Source: Magnetococcales bacterium (GTDB taxonomy: Bacteria; Pseudomonadota; Magnetococcia; Magnetococcales; JADFYX01). From it: DNA of 64,000 nt. The translations under genes were made by a program, and so were the position numbers. The notes beneath the pieces were generated by a model. That model was not told the DNA's origin, did no database searches, and saw only the letters and a list, made by a program, of their open reading frames with translations. Numbering within the stretch: the stretch's first letter is position 1; each line of letters starts with the position of its first letter. Location: contig PEAM01000009.1 of the NCBI GenBank assembly GCA_002753565.1, forward strand, positions 1 to 64,000, written 5' to 3'. Positions 37,541 to 44,608 of the stretch are shown here, piece by piece.

Positions 37541-38209
37541 ATGATCCCATCGCTCCTTGATCTATGGCTCACCTTTCTCACTGCTCTGCTGGCCAGCGGG
37601 CACTGTATCGGCATGTGTGGCGGTTTGGTTGCGGCCTACTCGCTGAAACTACCCAGAAAGGCTGGCTTTTCCCTTTTTGTTCCCCACCTGCTTTATGGGG
37701 CGGGCCGTCTCTCTACTTATATGTTGCTGGGCGCGGTCTCTGGTTGGGTCGGCTCTTTAAGCTTGACCTTTGACCGTCCCCAGTCTCTACAGGGGGTTCC
37801 CTATCTGTTGGCTGGCGGGATTATGGTTTGGATGGGGTTGGGAACGGCTGGATTGAATCCTCTGTCTGGTTTGAAAGAGGGGGGCAAGGAGGGGGGATTC
37901 CTCATCCGGTTGACCCAACGGGTGATGGCGTATCATGGCCGAGGGCGAACTTTTTTCTTGGGGATTATGACCGGTCTGCTACCCTGTACGCTGCACTGGG
38001 CGTTTCAGGCCAAGGCCATGGCGGTGGGGTCCATTGGAGGAGGGGCGGCTATTTTGCTGGCTTTTGGTCTGGGAACCCTGCCTGCTCTCTGGGGGTTTGG
38101 TCTCATCTCTACCTGGTTGAGCCAACACGCCCGACAACGATTGCTGCAAGGGGCTGGCTTGGTTATCGTTCTGATGGGATTGATGACCATTAAACAGGGG
38201 CTGTCTTAG
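37541..38209 (+). CDS. SafE/DsbD-like membrane protein near cbb3 maturation genes
   Basis: This 222-aa protein has about six helices, with the paired cysteine motifs GHCIGMCGG (residues about 21-29) and GLLPCTL (near residue 145), as in the DsbD-2/sulfite-exporter TauE/SafE-type family. Members encoded beside ccoGHIS genes are thought to help copper handling or redox supply for cbb3 assembly. It diverges from ccoI across 122 bases. The transported species is not known. Confidence 0.8.
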   Translation: MIPSLLDLWLTFLTALLASGHCIGMCGGLVAAYSLKLPRKAGFSLFVPHLLYGAGRLSTYMLLGAVSGWVGSLSLTFDRPQSLQGVPYLLAGGIMVWMGLGTAGLNPLSGLKEGGKEGGFLIRLTQRVMAYHGRGRTFFLGIMTGLLPCTLHWAFQAKAMAVGSIGGGAAILLAFGLGTLPALWGFGLISTWLSQHARQRLLQGAGLVIVLMGLMTIKQGLS

Positions 38210-38330: not shown

Positions 38331-41327
38331 ATGAGAGGACTCTTGAATCGACTGCTGCGCCGTCCCCTGTTGGGGGGTCAGATTCTGCTCTCATCCTTTA
38401 TTATCAACCTGTTGGGTTTAGCCTCCTCGGTCTATGTTATCCAGATCTTCAACCGTTATGTGGGCCATGGTATTGATGGGACCCTCTATACCTTGGGTGG
38501 AGGCATGGTCTTGGCCTTGGTGTTGGAGTTGGCTTTTCGCCATGTCCGGCAGCGGTTGGCAGAGGGTACGGTGGTTCTCCCAGACCATAGAATGGGTGAG
38601 CGGCTGGTTAAGTCGTTGACTCTGGCCAAATCTGCCGCGCTGGATTCGGTCCCGGTCGGTTTTCGGCGGGAGGCTTTGAAAGCGCTCTCCACCATCCAAA
38701 GTGCTTACTCTCCTGCCAATCTTCTTACCCTGGTGGACCTGCCTTTTGCCTTGATGTTCTTGGGGGCTGTCTATCTGCTGGCGCCTTCGTTGGGTATGGT
38801 GGCGCTGGTGGTGTTGTCTCTTTCGGTATTGGTTGCTCTATTGGGCAGCCGATTGGTGCAAAAGGCTCAACAATCATTAATTGGTGCCCAGGCCAGTCAG
38901 GGAACGGTCTCGGCCTCTCTGGAGCGAGGAGACTCGATCCGGGCCTTCAACATGAAACATTTCCTGCTCTCCCAATGGCGGGAAAAAAGCCTTAAAACCC
39001 ACCTTTTGCGAGGGAGAAGTGGGAGTCGACAGGCTTTTATTCAGTCTCTGTTACAGAGTGCCGGCGGCATCATGACCTTATTGGTTATCGGTGTGGGAGC
39101 CAAATTGGCTACCTTGGGTCAGTTGGAAATGGGCACCTTGATTGGTGCCAATATCCTGGCTGCTCGGGGCTTGATGATGGTCTCTCGCTTTGCCCAGATG
39201 ACCCCTGTTTTGGTTCAGGCCCGACAATCGGCAACCCTTTTGGCTCGGATGATGAAGCTGCCCAAGGAGTCGGAGGAGGGGACCCGTCTGGCCCACTTTT
39301 CAGGACGGCTGGCCTTCAAAGATATGGCGTTTCGCCATCCTGGCTCCTCGGCTCCTCTCTTTGAGTCTCTCTCCCTTGTGATTGAGCCGGGAGAGGTGTT
39401 GGTTGTCAGTGGTAACAATGGGTCGGGAAAAACCACCCTGGCCCGGCTGTTGGTTGGGTTGATTGAGCTGGATCGAGGGGCTATTTTGGTGGACGGTGTC
39501 GACCTTCGTCAGATCGACCCGGTATGGTGGCGACAGCAGATAGTCTATCTACCACAAGATCCCAGCCTGATCCACGCTACCCTCCGGGAAAATCTGGCGG
39601 TATTAAACCCCGATGTGGGAGATGAGAGCCTGAAGCAGATGCTGCGCCGGGTGGGGTTGGGGCCGTTTCTAGATGAAAATCCACAAGGTCTGGACCGGAT
39701 GATGGAGGGTGGCTCTCCCCATCTTTCACGAGGTATTCTTCGCCGTATGGCTCTGGTCAGAGCCATGGTTTCCCAAGGGGGAATCGTTCTGATGGATGAG
39801 CCGACCGATGGCCTGGACCGGGATGGTGTTGGGATGATAGCGGAGTTGATTACCCAACTTAATGAGCAGGGTCGTACACTTATCGTCTTCTCCAGCCAGC
39901 CGGATATTCTCCAGTCCCGCGGCTTGGTTTTGGATATCAACAACAAGCCGACCCCTTTACTAAGACAAAAGCAGGGGGCCGCAGCTCCTACCAAAAGAGC
40001 TGTCTATAAAAGAGAGTCTACCCAGCTGCCAACTCCCCCGGCTCCTCTGGATGAGTCGCTGGCTGATGTGGGGGTAACATGGCGTGTGTCCGGTTTGGGG
40101 TTTATGCTTATCACTCTGTTTGTCTCTTTGGCTCTTTGGGCCAACATCAGACACCTGGATGTGATGAGTCTGGCTGAGGGAGAGATTGTCACCGCCAGCA
40201 AGGTTCAGCAGGTTCAGCATCTGGAGGGGGGGATTGTTCGGGAAATATTGGTCCAGGAGGGGGATACGGTTGAGAAGGGGCAGCCCCTGATTGTTCTGGA
40301 CTCTATTGCCAGTGCGGCGGATGTGGAGGCCATTCAATTAAATATCCGCTCTTTAAAGGTGGATCTTATCCGGCTTCAGGCAGAAGTTGCTGACGAGGAG
40401 ACGCTCACGTTTGGCCCAGAATGGCAAGATCAGACGCTGCTCTCCCAGGCGCGGAACCTCTTCCAGGCTCGACGTCGCTCCTTGATGTCGGAGCTTGACA
40501 GCCAAAGAGACCTGATTGTTCAACGCCAGGAGGAGATTGCCGAGGTTCAGGCCCGTCAATCCAGACAGAAAAAACTGATGGTCATCCTGCGGGAACAGAT
40601 TGCCATCAGTCGGACCATGGTCTCTGAAGCTCTCTCCAGCCGCTATGAACATTTAAACCACCTGAAAGAGCAGAATCAGTTGGAGAGCCGTATTGAGGAG
40701 GATGGAGCGGCCTTGAAACGGACAGCCGCCGCTCTGCGTCAGGCAGAAGAGACTCTGTTGGGTATTCAACATCAACATAAAGAGGCCTTGCGACAAGAGC
40801 TGGAAGAGACCCAACGCAACCTGAACGAGCTGGTGTTGCGTCTGGAAAAATTTGAAGATAGCATGCAACGCAAGGTGTTGAGAGCCCCTGTCAACGGTAT
40901 TATCAAAACCCTGTTTGTGGTCAGCAAGGGAGGGGTTGTCCCTCCGGGTGGCACAGTTCTTGAAGTAGTACCGGGAGAGGATCGTCTGCTGGTTGAGGCT
41001 CGGCTTCCTGTTCAGGATGTGGGACATGTCAAGATAGGCCAGCGTGTTATCATCCGCTTGGCTTCAGTAGATGCAAGTAAATTTGGCAAGTTAGAGGGAA
41101 GTGTGGTACATATCAGCCCTGATTCGGTTGTCTCTCAAGAGGGGTTTCCCTATTATGTGGTGAGAATTTCGACCAAGCAAAGTTATTTTTTAAATGGTCA
41201 GGACCGTTACGACCTGGTTCCGGGTGTTGTCGTGACAGCGGGAATATTGACAGGAGAGCGAACAGTTTTAGAGTATATCATGGGGCCTTTTGCTCAGGGG
41301 ATCGACTTTGCGCTGAGTGAACGGTAA
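38331..41327 (+). CDS. Fused type I secretion ABC transporter and HlyD-type membrane fusion protein
   Basis: This single 998-aa protein joins two parts that are normally separate. Residues 1-300 are an ABC exporter membrane domain (about six helices). Residues about 325-535 are the nucleotide-binding domain: Walker A GNNGSGKTT (361-369), Q-loop Q409, signature LSRGI (465-469) and Walker B VLMDE (486-490). The H-loop position reads VFSSQPD, so the usual histidine is absent. After a proline-rich linker, a helix (about 588-606) leads into a HlyD part with a lipoyl-like HLEGGIVREILVQEGD motif (630-645), a long coiled coil (about 660-845) and a beta-barrel domain. There is no frameshift. It is followed by a TolC homologue. 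Confidence 0.93.
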   Translation: MRGLLNRLLRRPLLGGQILLSSFIINLLGLASSVYVIQIFNRYVGHGIDGTLYTLGGGMVLALVLELAFRHVRQRLAEGTVVLPDHRMGERLVKSLTLAKSAALDSVPVGFRREALKALSTIQSAYSPANLLTLVDLPFALMFLGAVYLLAPSLGMVALVVLSLSVLVALLGSRLVQKAQQSLIGAQASQGTVSASLERGDSIRAFNMKHFLLSQWREKSLKTHLLRGRSGSRQAFIQSLLQSAGGIMTLLVIGVGAKLATLGQLEMGTLIGANILAARGLMMVSRFAQMTPVLVQARQSATLLARMMKLPKESEEGTRLAHFSGRLAFKDMAFRHPGSSAPLFESLSLVIEPGEVLVVSGNNGSGKTTLARLLVGLIELDRGAILVDGVDLRQIDPVWWRQQIVYLPQDPSLIHATLRENLAVLNPDVGDESLKQMLRRVGLGPFLDENPQGLDRMMEGGSPHLSRGILRRMALVRAMVSQGGIVLMDEPTDGLDRDGVGMIAELITQLNEQGRTLIVFSSQPDILQSRGLVLDINNKPTPLLRQKQGAAAPTKRAVYKRESTQLPTPPAPLDESLADVGVTWRVSGLGFMLITLFVSLALWANIRHLDVMSLAEGEIVTASKVQQVQHLEGGIVREILVQEGDTVEKGQPLIVLDSIASAADVEAIQLNIRSLKVDLIRLQAEVADEETLTFGPEWQDQTLLSQARNLFQARRRSLMSELDSQRDLIVQRQEEIAEVQARQSRQKKLMVILREQIAISRTMVSEALSSRYEHLNHLKEQNQLESRIEEDGAALKRTAAALRQAEETLLGIQHQHKEALRQELEETQRNLNELVLRLEKFEDSMQRKVLRAPVNGIIKTLFVVSKGGVVPPGGTVLEVVPGEDRLLVEARLPVQDVGHVKIGQRVIIRLASVDASKFGKLEGSVVHISPDSVVSQEGFPYYVVRISTKQSYFLNGQDRYDLVPGVVVTAGILTGERTVLEYIMGPFAQGIDFALSER

Positions 41328-41337
41328 TAGGTGGGGT

Positions 41338-42666
41338 ATGAAATATTTGTCTGGTATAATGGGAAAAAAAATAGTTTATGTTGCGGTGCTCTCTCTTGTC
41401 TTGATGCCCGTACCGCAGGCTTTTTCACAAACCTTGAACGAACTGGTTAAAGAGACACTCCAGACCAATCCCGAGGTACAGGCGGCCCAAAGCAATATGG
41501 CTGCCATCAAACAGATGGTCCGCCAGGCCAAGGCCGGGTATCTGCCCACCGTCGATTTTGCCGCAGGATACGGTACCGAATACAGTGATAACAGCACCAC
41601 CCGAGCCATCACCAACTATCATCATGAAACCATGGGAAGAGGGGAGTCCAGCCTCAGCGTCAATCAGATGCTCTTTGATGGTTTTCGGACCAAACATGAC
41701 AAGGCCCGAGTTGAAGCCCTCTATCTTGCTGCAAAAAACAACCTGAACCAGACCTCAGAATCGGTTGCGGGGAACACCCTTTCAGCCTTTCTGGAGGTGA
41801 TCAAACGGCATGAACTGCTCGAGTTGATCAAAGATAACGTCCTTCTTCATCAGCGTTCCCTGAAAAAAATCAAACGCAAAGTGGAGGTGGGGGGTGGTAA
41901 TCAGGTTGATGTTCAACAGACAGAAAGTCGACTGGCTCTGGCCTCCTCCAGCCATGCAATGGGTGAGATCGCCTTAAAGAACAGCAAGGCTCGATTCTTT
42001 CGAATTACCGGTCAGACGGTAACCGAATTGACCCGCCCTGATCCCGTCATGGATCTGATTCCCAACTCTCTGGAAAAAGCCTGGGAGATTGCCCTGGTCA
42101 ACCATCCGGGTCTGCAGGCCTCCCAGGCCAATCTGCTTGCGGCCAGAGCCGAGAAAGAGGGGGCGCGGTCAGCCCTGTTTCCCAAAGTCAACCTGGAACT
42201 CAACTACACCAATAACGGCAATATTTCCGGTGCAGCCGGTCACAGCCACTCAGCCAGTGCCATGGTTCGTTTAAGATACAACCTTTTTAGTGGCTGGGCC
42301 GATGAGGCCAAAGGGGATGAGCTGATGGAGAGGATTAATCAGCGACAAGAGCTTCTTGAGCAGGCCCGTCGAACCATCCGTGAGCAGGTTGAAACCACTT
42401 GGGAGACCCTCCAGGGGACCATAAGCCGCATTGCTCATCTGGAAAAGCACCAGAAGATCAGTCAAGAGGTGACCCTCTCCTACCACAATCAGTTTAAGCT
42501 GGGAAAACGGACCTTCCTGGATGTTTTGAACTCCGAAACAGAACTTTTCAACGCCAAAAGTACCCTGGTAAGTGCCCAGATAGAGTATTTGAAAATGGTC
42601 TATCAACTCTTATCCCAGATGGGTCTGGTGCGGCAATCTTTGGGTATTGAACGGTCAGAAGGGTAG
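41338..42666 (+). CDS. TolC-family outer membrane protein
   Basis: This is a 442-aa outer-membrane channel subunit for type I secretion. The start at 41338 has AGGTGGGG before it. A signal peptide covers residues about 1-29 (cleavage after QAFSQ). Two internally repeated outer-membrane-efflux halves begin with LNELVKETLQTNPEVQAAQS and WEIALVNHPGLQASQANLLA, each followed by long helices. The conserved FLDVLNSETELFNAKSTLV motif is near the end. It lies ten bases after the fused ABC-HlyD gene, so the pair encodes the whole three-part exporter. Confidence 0.94.
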   Translation: MKYLSGIMGKKIVYVAVLSLVLMPVPQAFSQTLNELVKETLQTNPEVQAAQSNMAAIKQMVRQAKAGYLPTVDFAAGYGTEYSDNSTTRAITNYHHETMGRGESSLSVNQMLFDGFRTKHDKARVEALYLAAKNNLNQTSESVAGNTLSAFLEVIKRHELLELIKDNVLLHQRSLKKIKRKVEVGGGNQVDVQQTESRLALASSSHAMGEIALKNSKARFFRITGQTVTELTRPDPVMDLIPNSLEKAWEIALVNHPGLQASQANLLAARAEKEGARSALFPKVNLELNYTNNGNISGAAGHSHSASAMVRLRYNLFSGWADEAKGDELMERINQRQELLEQARRTIREQVETTWETLQGTISRIAHLEKHQKISQEVTLSYHNQFKLGKRTFLDVLNSETELFNAKSTLVSAQIEYLKMVYQLLSQMGLVRQSLGIERSEG

Positions 42667-42736: not shown

Positions 42737-44476
42737 CTATTCAGCTATCAACTGTTCAATCTCTGTAATTCTAGGGTCACCGGGAAACATTTTTCTGGCT
42801 CTCTCCAGATAGAGTTTGGCATTACCGGTTCTATCCCAGATGGCCAACTCCAGAAACCGCTCAAAAACGGTGTTTTCCAACTCCTTGATGAGGGGATTCT
42901 CTGGGGACAACGCTTTAATCTTTTCAATCTTCCTCATGGCATTATCATTCCAGGGACGGGTAAGGCGGGATTCGGTAATATTCCGTTTGACGCCATCAAC
43001 CAATACCGCTATCTGACCTTCAACTCCGGCTGGTATTTCTGTTGCCGCCTCTTTATGAGCAGGAGGGGTGGTCTCCTCTTCGCCGGGAGGGGTCGAGCGT
43101 TCCATGGGTTCAGGAGCGGTTCCTGAATAGTGTTCCATATTTACCTGGCCTTGCTCGTCAGCCGACCCCTCTTGAGATGGTTTTTGAGAGGTTGGTTCCG
43201 GTTGAGGAGCTGCTTGTGGAGCAGGAGGAGGAGCCAGGGGAGGATATTCGGGTTGTTGAATGGCAGAGTCGGTCTCGCCTATTGCGGCTTCATCGGGGAG
43301 CAGTCCATGGGTTTCATCAGGTGGCTCGATTGGGGTGGAAAGGTTGATTGCCGCAGAGGAGTTAAGGGTGGAGTTCTCTTGGGGTTTGCTGTCCGTCATC
43401 ACCTCAGCACCCTGCTCGGACAAAGATTTCTCCCCCAAAAAAGTGGTATGAGAAGAGTCGGTTGTCTCTGCTTGTTGAGTCTCCTGTTCCTCTGTTGGTT
43501 CTGGCAGAGAAAGGGGCGTGGCCTCTTGTTGTTGCGTGGGCCGGTTGGCAAAATCCGACTGTTCTGAAACGGCTGGGGTTGGTTTGGGGTAGCTGGTTAC
43601 ATAGTTGGCGATAACACCGGTCACAAGGGCCAGGCCTACCCATGCGATGGCAACGGGCAGTTTGATGGGGCTCTTCTTCGCCTCTTCTTGTGGGATCGAT
43701 TTTTGGGGCAAGATACGGTGGGCTGTCTCTGGTTGGGTTTTGGGTTGATCTTGTCGATTGGCCCGATTGCTCAGATGTTTAAAGTTGTGTCGGGCAGAGA
43801 CCAGAGCATAGATGTTGGCGAGCATGCCCTGTTGGCGTAGCTCCAGAAAATAGTCATCAGGCAGATCGTTGAGTTTGGCTGGGTCTAGAAGAAAAAAATT
43901 ATGGGTCTGTACTGGCAGGGATTCACCCGGAACAAGATCAGCCAGATGTTTGCTGTGAAAAAGATTCTGTTCGTAGAGTTTATAGACAACCCAGTCTGTT
44001 TGCCCTAATGCCTTCTGATATTTAACCAGCTTTTTGCGGATGCTCTTTAAAAGGTCGGTAGCCTCACCCGAGGGGCTGAAAAGGGGCTGTCCCTCTTCAG
44101 GGGAGAGGTTGACATCAAAATGGGGGGCATTCCTATCGATGAGCAGGGTCATTTTCCCTCTTTCATCGATAGGGCCAGGGTAGAAGGGGTAACAGGCCAG
44201 GCTGGCAGGAATCAGGTGGTTTTCCTGCCACTCACCTTGGCTGGTAAGAAACAGGTTTCCCCGGGTCGTCTCCAACCCCAGCAGCGCCATGGGAACCAGC
44301 CTTTCATCGCCTTCACTCAACGAAAAGAGGATGGGATAGGATCGAGAAGCCTGGATAAACTCGGAAAAGAGCAGAGGAGCCATCACTCTCTTGGCTGTAT
44401 TGAGATAGCTGTTTTGCGGTCTATAGACAAGATTTTTATGGTCTATGGGGTTCAATACTTCAAGTTTAAGGTTCAT
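42737..44476 (-). CDS. SapC-domain protein with membrane anchor and long linker
   Basis: This is a 579-aa protein. Residues about 30-235 match the SapC family (YPILFSLSEGDERLVPMALL, GNLFLTSQGEWQ, IPASLACYPFY, FFLLDPAKLNDLPDD). A basic stretch and one transmembrane helix (about 274-293) follow. Then comes a Pro/Glu/Gln-rich linker (about 300-480) and a helical C-terminal domain (485-579). The start at 44476 is preceded by AGAGAAG. SapC proteins are linked to S-layer or RTX protein secretion, and this gene converges on the type I exporter. The C-terminal extension is not part of the usual family. Whether it is an exporter partner is inferred. Confidence 0.78.
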   Translation of the reverse strand: MNLKLEVLNPIDHKNLVYRPQNSYLNTAKRVMAPLLFSEFIQASRSYPILFSLSEGDERLVPMALLGLETTRGNLFLTSQGEWQENHLIPASLACYPFYPGPIDERGKMTLLIDRNAPHFDVNLSPEEGQPLFSPSGEATDLLKSIRKKLVKYQKALGQTDWVVYKLYEQNLFHSKHLADLVPGESLPVQTHNFFLLDPAKLNDLPDDYFLELRQQGMLANIYALVSARHNFKHLSNRANRQDQPKTQPETAHRILPQKSIPQEEAKKSPIKLPVAIAWVGLALVTGVIANYVTSYPKPTPAVSEQSDFANRPTQQQEATPLSLPEPTEEQETQQAETTDSSHTTFLGEKSLSEQGAEVMTDSKPQENSTLNSSAAINLSTPIEPPDETHGLLPDEAAIGETDSAIQQPEYPPLAPPPAPQAAPQPEPTSQKPSQEGSADEQGQVNMEHYSGTAPEPMERSTPPGEEETTPPAHKEAATEIPAGVEGQIAVLVDGVKRNITESRLTRPWNDNAMRKIEKIKALSPENPLIKELENTVFERFLELAIWDRTGNAKLYLERARKMFPGDPRITEIEQLIAE

Positions 44477-44608
44477 CCTCTCTTCTCTTTTCTGCTCTTT
44501 CCAGTGTAGTGGTTGGGCCCAAGGAAGGGAGCGTCGTTGAGGCTCGGTTGATCGGCTACTATAGTAGTTCTTTCGCTCGAATGCCAACTCTCCCTACCGG
44601 GGATGAAA

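Follow-up and report, generated by a model that had tools for sequence, protein, structure and literature searches.

The window analysed here is a stretch of 64,000 nucleotides from a Magnetococcales bacterium (positions 1 to 64,000 of contig PEAM01000009.1, assembly GCA_002753565.1). On its forward strand, a single open frame runs from an ATG at 38331 to a stop codon ending at 41327 and encodes a protein of 998 amino acids, which combines a half-size ABC exporter (residues ~1-535) and a HlyD-type adaptor (residues ~584-998) in one chain. An ABC exporter ATPase and its HlyD adaptor are usually separate proteins. The exporter half consists of a transmembrane domain (residues 1-326; 38331..39308), recognized by the Pfam model ABC_membrane over residues 18-278 and seen as long transmembrane helices in an AlphaFold2 (AF2) model, and a nucleotide-binding domain (NBD; residues 327-535; 39309..39935), recognized by ABC_tran over residues 345-492 and carrying Walker A, Q-loop and Walker B (DEP) motifs together with LSRGI at 465 and a serine, S522. 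An N-terminal C39 or C39-like domain is absent. The halves are connected by a proline-rich linker (residues 536-583; 39936..40079), delimited by AF2 confidence, a linker scan and length comparisons and predicted to be disordered. It leads into a transmembrane helix (residues 584-606 in the model, with a hydropathy peak at 586-604; 40080..40148) and a periplasmic adaptor (residues 607-998; 40149..41324) with barrel domains and a long helical hairpin (model helices 701-765 and 771-845), where HlyD_3 matched residues 849-950.

The HlyD half matched the NCBIfam model TIGR01843 over residues 592-998 with 359 bits (curated cut-off 208.65), identifying it as a type I secretion system (T1SS) adaptor. 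For the ABC half, residues 16-528 resembled the type I secretion permease/ATPases of TIGR03375 and TIGR01842, with scores below the curated NCBIfam cut-offs for these and for TIGR01846 (334 of 693, 237 of 510 and 207 of 726 bits, respectively). Judged by its sequence, this half is thus a relative of the LssB/PrtD/HlyB subfamilies that lies outside those modelled. Downstream on the same strand follows a gene for a TolC-family outer-membrane channel (41338..42666), which matched TIGR01844 with 299 bits (cut-off 225) as well as OEP. Its possible starts are an ATG at 41338, 10 bases past the stop of the fused gene, and a GTG at 41317, where the listed open reading frame begins. ABC exporter, adaptor and TolC-type channel, the gene set of a T1SS, are therefore all found in one locus (38331-42666). 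The initial annotation, which had described one uninterrupted 998-residue frame over both domains with TolC next, was correct in coordinates, length, junction and downstream gene.

It had also proposed that the fusion was natural, called for a survey of homologues, and named a sequencing error hiding a stop, or relatives with two separate genes and a conserved stop, as observations that would speak against it. A survey of 48 genomes of the same order found the same fusion in G020 and G039, complete, uninterrupted by a stop and with 50-51% identity to the 998-residue protein. In G032, the junction was also open; this copy is cut off by the end of contig 358, and the beginning of contig 101 matches the C-terminal portion that it lacks. 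Trees were built separately for the ABC halves and the HlyD halves (39 rows each, 4 fused and 35 unfused), and the four fused proteins formed a single clade in both, with support of 97/93 (ABC) and 99/97 (HlyD). Because the same open junction recurs in G020, G039 and G032, independent genomes whose copies are ~50% identical, and the fused genes form one clade, a sequencing or assembly artefact concealing a stop is excluded for practical purposes and retains a negligible probability, even though unfused relatives do carry one in-frame stop at this position. Two-gene relatives with a stop thus exist, and in the same frame, as had been anticipated, yet the fused genes form a clade of their own in which the stop was probably lost once. 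For the G020-G039 pair, dN/dS was 0.27 over the whole gene (ABC, 0.33; linker, 0.62; HlyD, 0.19), which indicates purifying selection on both halves. The fusion is real, has a single origin and is common to a small group of related bacteria in two families.

The nearest unfused relatives suggest how it arose. Their ABC and HlyD genes lie in tandem, and in G043, G037, G022 and G031, as well as in G749 from outside the order, the two genes share one reading frame that a single stop interrupts; at three junctions (L011-L013), only 1 to 5 codons separate the stop from the HlyD start. Between the conserved end of the NBD and the HlyD motif QHLEGG, the fused proteins have 95, 94, 94 and 92 residues, and the summed tails of the unfused pairs over the same interval amount to 77-87 residues in five of six pairs and 116 in the remaining one. 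Since the unfused relatives are tandem, often in the same frame and separated by one stop, and since the length of the linker fits the retention of both tails, comparison of the sequences suggests that the fusion arose by loss of the stop codon between same-frame tandem genes, with both tails kept.

Beyond the order, no ABC-HlyD fusion was found in ~700 further genomes sampled from the phylum; in part of this sample, scoring was confined to the two best candidates of each genome, and two of the draws were nearly the same. One apparent full-length match (G278 contig 135, L066) was rejected as a fusion, as its ABC and HlyD frames differ; the HlyD frame there itself shifts at a short duplicated stretch, pointing to a broken gene or an assembly error. 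Plasmid relatives were likewise rejected, the annotated ones among the matches listed being two genes. No paper naming an ABC-HlyD fusion was found among open-licence PMC articles, nor did the accessible portions of a 2021 Chem. Rev. review yield such a fusion under the terms tried, while automatically annotated members may already exist in UniProt/InterPro. We conclude that the fusion is a genuine new variant of type I secretion.

The exporter and TolC genes are flanked on the left by a gene for a SafE-like membrane protein, named by inspection (37541..38209, forward strand), and on the right by a gene for a 616-residue SapC-domain protein (42737..44587, reverse strand; PF07277, 153 bits), an assignment also backed by synteny. 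In the latter, the SapC domain occupies residues 45-272, and beyond it lie a hydrophobic stretch and an extended region of low complexity. In G001, G002 and G004, all three from the genus of the window's organism, the SafE-like and SapC-domain genes are convergent and ~10-25 bases apart, with no exporter or other gene between them. Because the flanking genes adjoin directly there, the gene order indicates that the exporter-TolC cassette either entered this site in the lineage of the window or was lost in the others.

With regard to cargo, a large exoprotein-type gene lies directly upstream of the fused gene in both G020 and G039, and the one in G020 encodes 2689 residues and gives a weak match of cadherin-like type. 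Beside the copy in the window, no such gene was seen. The closest homologue of the N-terminus of the G020 exoprotein in the window's genome is a 1513-residue FecR/Ig-domain protein on contig 92, whose N-terminus is 51% identical, and this protein may be regarded as the best, though weakly assigned, candidate cargo. At its locus (L073, 5929-13123), the giant gene is followed by a TPR-sulfotransferase gene, an arrangement resembling an orphan cargo-type locus, and no exporter was found near it among the genes in the stretch read.

Since the exporter's NBD ends on the cytoplasmic side of the membrane and HlyD starts there too, joining them preserves the topology of both. An AF2 prediction (single chain, 17 sequences) gave two folded halves and a disordered linker, with pLDDT below 50 at residues 548-587, a mean pLDDT of 78.9 and a pTM of 0.46. 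In the PDB, this model was matched best by HlyB chains from the HlyB/D complex (8dck and 7sgr). In the initial annotation it was argued that a fixed 1:1 ratio conflicts with two ABC subunits and six adaptors, so that either the geometry must differ or the protein must be processed. That premise is outdated: the HlyB/HlyD complex consists of three HlyB dimers with six HlyD (PMC11026475, PMC10386944), and 8dck contains six HlyB and six HlyD chains. As the known complex is already 1:1, the argument for an altered geometry fails, neither alternative is needed, and three ABC dimers with six adaptors would be compatible with a 1:1 fusion.

We favour a reading in which a single polypeptide would serve a T1SS as ABC engine and periplasmic adaptor alike, with TolC providing the outer-membrane channel. 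The former cytoplasmic tails would have become a flexible tether of ~50 residues from the end of the NBD to the membrane helix of the adaptor, and six chains would place three ABC dimers beneath one six-membered adaptor ring, as in HlyB/HlyD. Such a tether would guarantee 1:1 supply and local assembly, and the cargo would be a giant surface protein like those whose genes precede the fused gene in G020 and G039. To this explanation as a whole, including stop loss, six-chain assembly and giant surface cargo, we assign a probability of roughly 0.72.

The linker is where two other readings would have to act. Internal starts within it could also yield free HlyD, so that adaptors could outnumber engines, and GTG and TTG codons do occur in and near it. 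However, a scan of the linkers of the fused genes for a Shine-Dalgarno sequence plus start returned none, and none of these codons inside the linker itself comes with a sequence resembling a Shine-Dalgarno element, while the unfused HlyD genes of L011-L012 have both elements. The linker of the window gene also lacks an ATG, and start codons occupy no shared positions across the fused genes, making this reading highly improbable. The fused chain could instead be a precursor that is cut in the linker to give ordinary, separate ABC and HlyD subunits, as a disordered, proline-rich segment that is the fastest-changing part of the protein might allow. Against this, the interval from NBD to QHLEGG is kept at 92-95 residues while the linker sequence diverges, and the known 1:1 complex requires no cleavage; we regard processing as quite unlikely.

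A further reading concerns the engine itself. The fused ABC half keeps the Walker A lysine (GNNGSGKTT, 361-369), the Q-loop glutamine (YLPQDP), the Walker B Asp-Glu pair (LMDEP) and the D-loop aspartate, and the first three of these mark it as an ABC ATPase. In place of the LSGGQ signature stands LSRGI, and the subfamily as a whole shows variants such as LAxGI. Where the H-loop should have a histidine, all four fused proteins have a serine (residue 522 here). In HlyB, the H662A substitution left under 0.1% of ATPase activity (PMC6222333). Because the histidine is missing and the signature is degenerate, ATP hydrolysis may be slow or unusual. The fused ABC half could then be weak or dead, working only with an intact ABC partner, such as the unfused contig 25 paralogue, or serving mainly as a scaffold, and unfused paralogues are indeed present in the same genomes. 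The retained motifs argue against this, as does the lack of the histidine in unfused relatives, G014 and the Methylococcaceae among them, and in 7 of the 35 unfused rows, and the contig 25 paralogue has a HlyD gene of its own; we consider a weak or dead engine unlikely. Loss of the histidine as a consequence of fusion was rejected as a general link: the residue is kept in L059 (G025), which is the unfused sister, and in L021 (G003), the next neighbour, and its state requires five changes on the tree, where fusion is one event. As read from the alignment, the loss has happened repeatedly within the subfamily, on one occasion together with fusion. A bolder version of the favoured reading, which we hold only tentatively and think rather unlikely, is that the inner-membrane complex consists of six copies of one self-contained chain and that its ATPase cycle dispenses with the H-loop histidine, with coupling or pacing of the engine aided by the tethered adaptor.

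Other aberrant ABC genes were noted along the way. An unfused member of the same subfamily, L034 (G017 contig 87), has lost both Walker A (GERKAKSL) and the H-loop histidine, with its HlyD gene still following it. The window's genome has two further T1SS-like loci, outside the window, at contig 23:90317-95894 and contig 3:6041-12579, each with two close ABC genes, one per pair having an aberrant H-loop (SAR, SQR); these look like heterodimeric exporters.

A natural tether between engine and adaptor provides independent evolutionary support for a 1:1 ratio of ABC to adaptor in type I secretion, and the fused chain would give structural studies a simpler system with locked stoichiometry. The absence of the catalytic histidine from a conserved exporter also makes it testable whether secretion needs hydrolysis at the canonical rate.

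Among known systems, the E. coli hemolysin system HlyB/HlyD/TolC (PDB 7sgr, 8dck) shares the ABC exporter, the HlyD adaptor and TolC. HlyB is the best match of the model's ABC half among solved structures, and the solved complex has the 1:1 ratio that the fusion would impose. There, however, ABC and adaptor are separate proteins, and HlyB has an N-terminal C39-like domain that the fused protein lacks, whereas the fused protein is without the H-loop histidine and a canonical LSGGQ. The PrtD/LssB-type ABC proteins (TIGR01842, TIGR03375; PDB 5l22) are closer in layout, the fused half-transporter of ~535 residues being without C39 as in PrtD, but its scores of 237 and 334 bits are far under 510 and 693, and its C-loop and H-loop are degenerate. 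Unfused relatives from the same order and from Azospirillum (e.g., sp. B510, AZL_RS21905/21900/21895, near a VCBS-domain giant protein) have an ABC protein of the same subfamily in tandem with HlyD and TolC, but there ABC and HlyD are two genes that a stop separates or that overlap. Finally, C39 peptidase-ABC exporters, as described in PMC8277102, are likewise natural fusions in which a domain has joined an ABC exporter of the type I secretion kind; there a cytoplasmic peptidase is added at the N-terminus, whereas here a periplasmic adaptor is added at the C-terminus.
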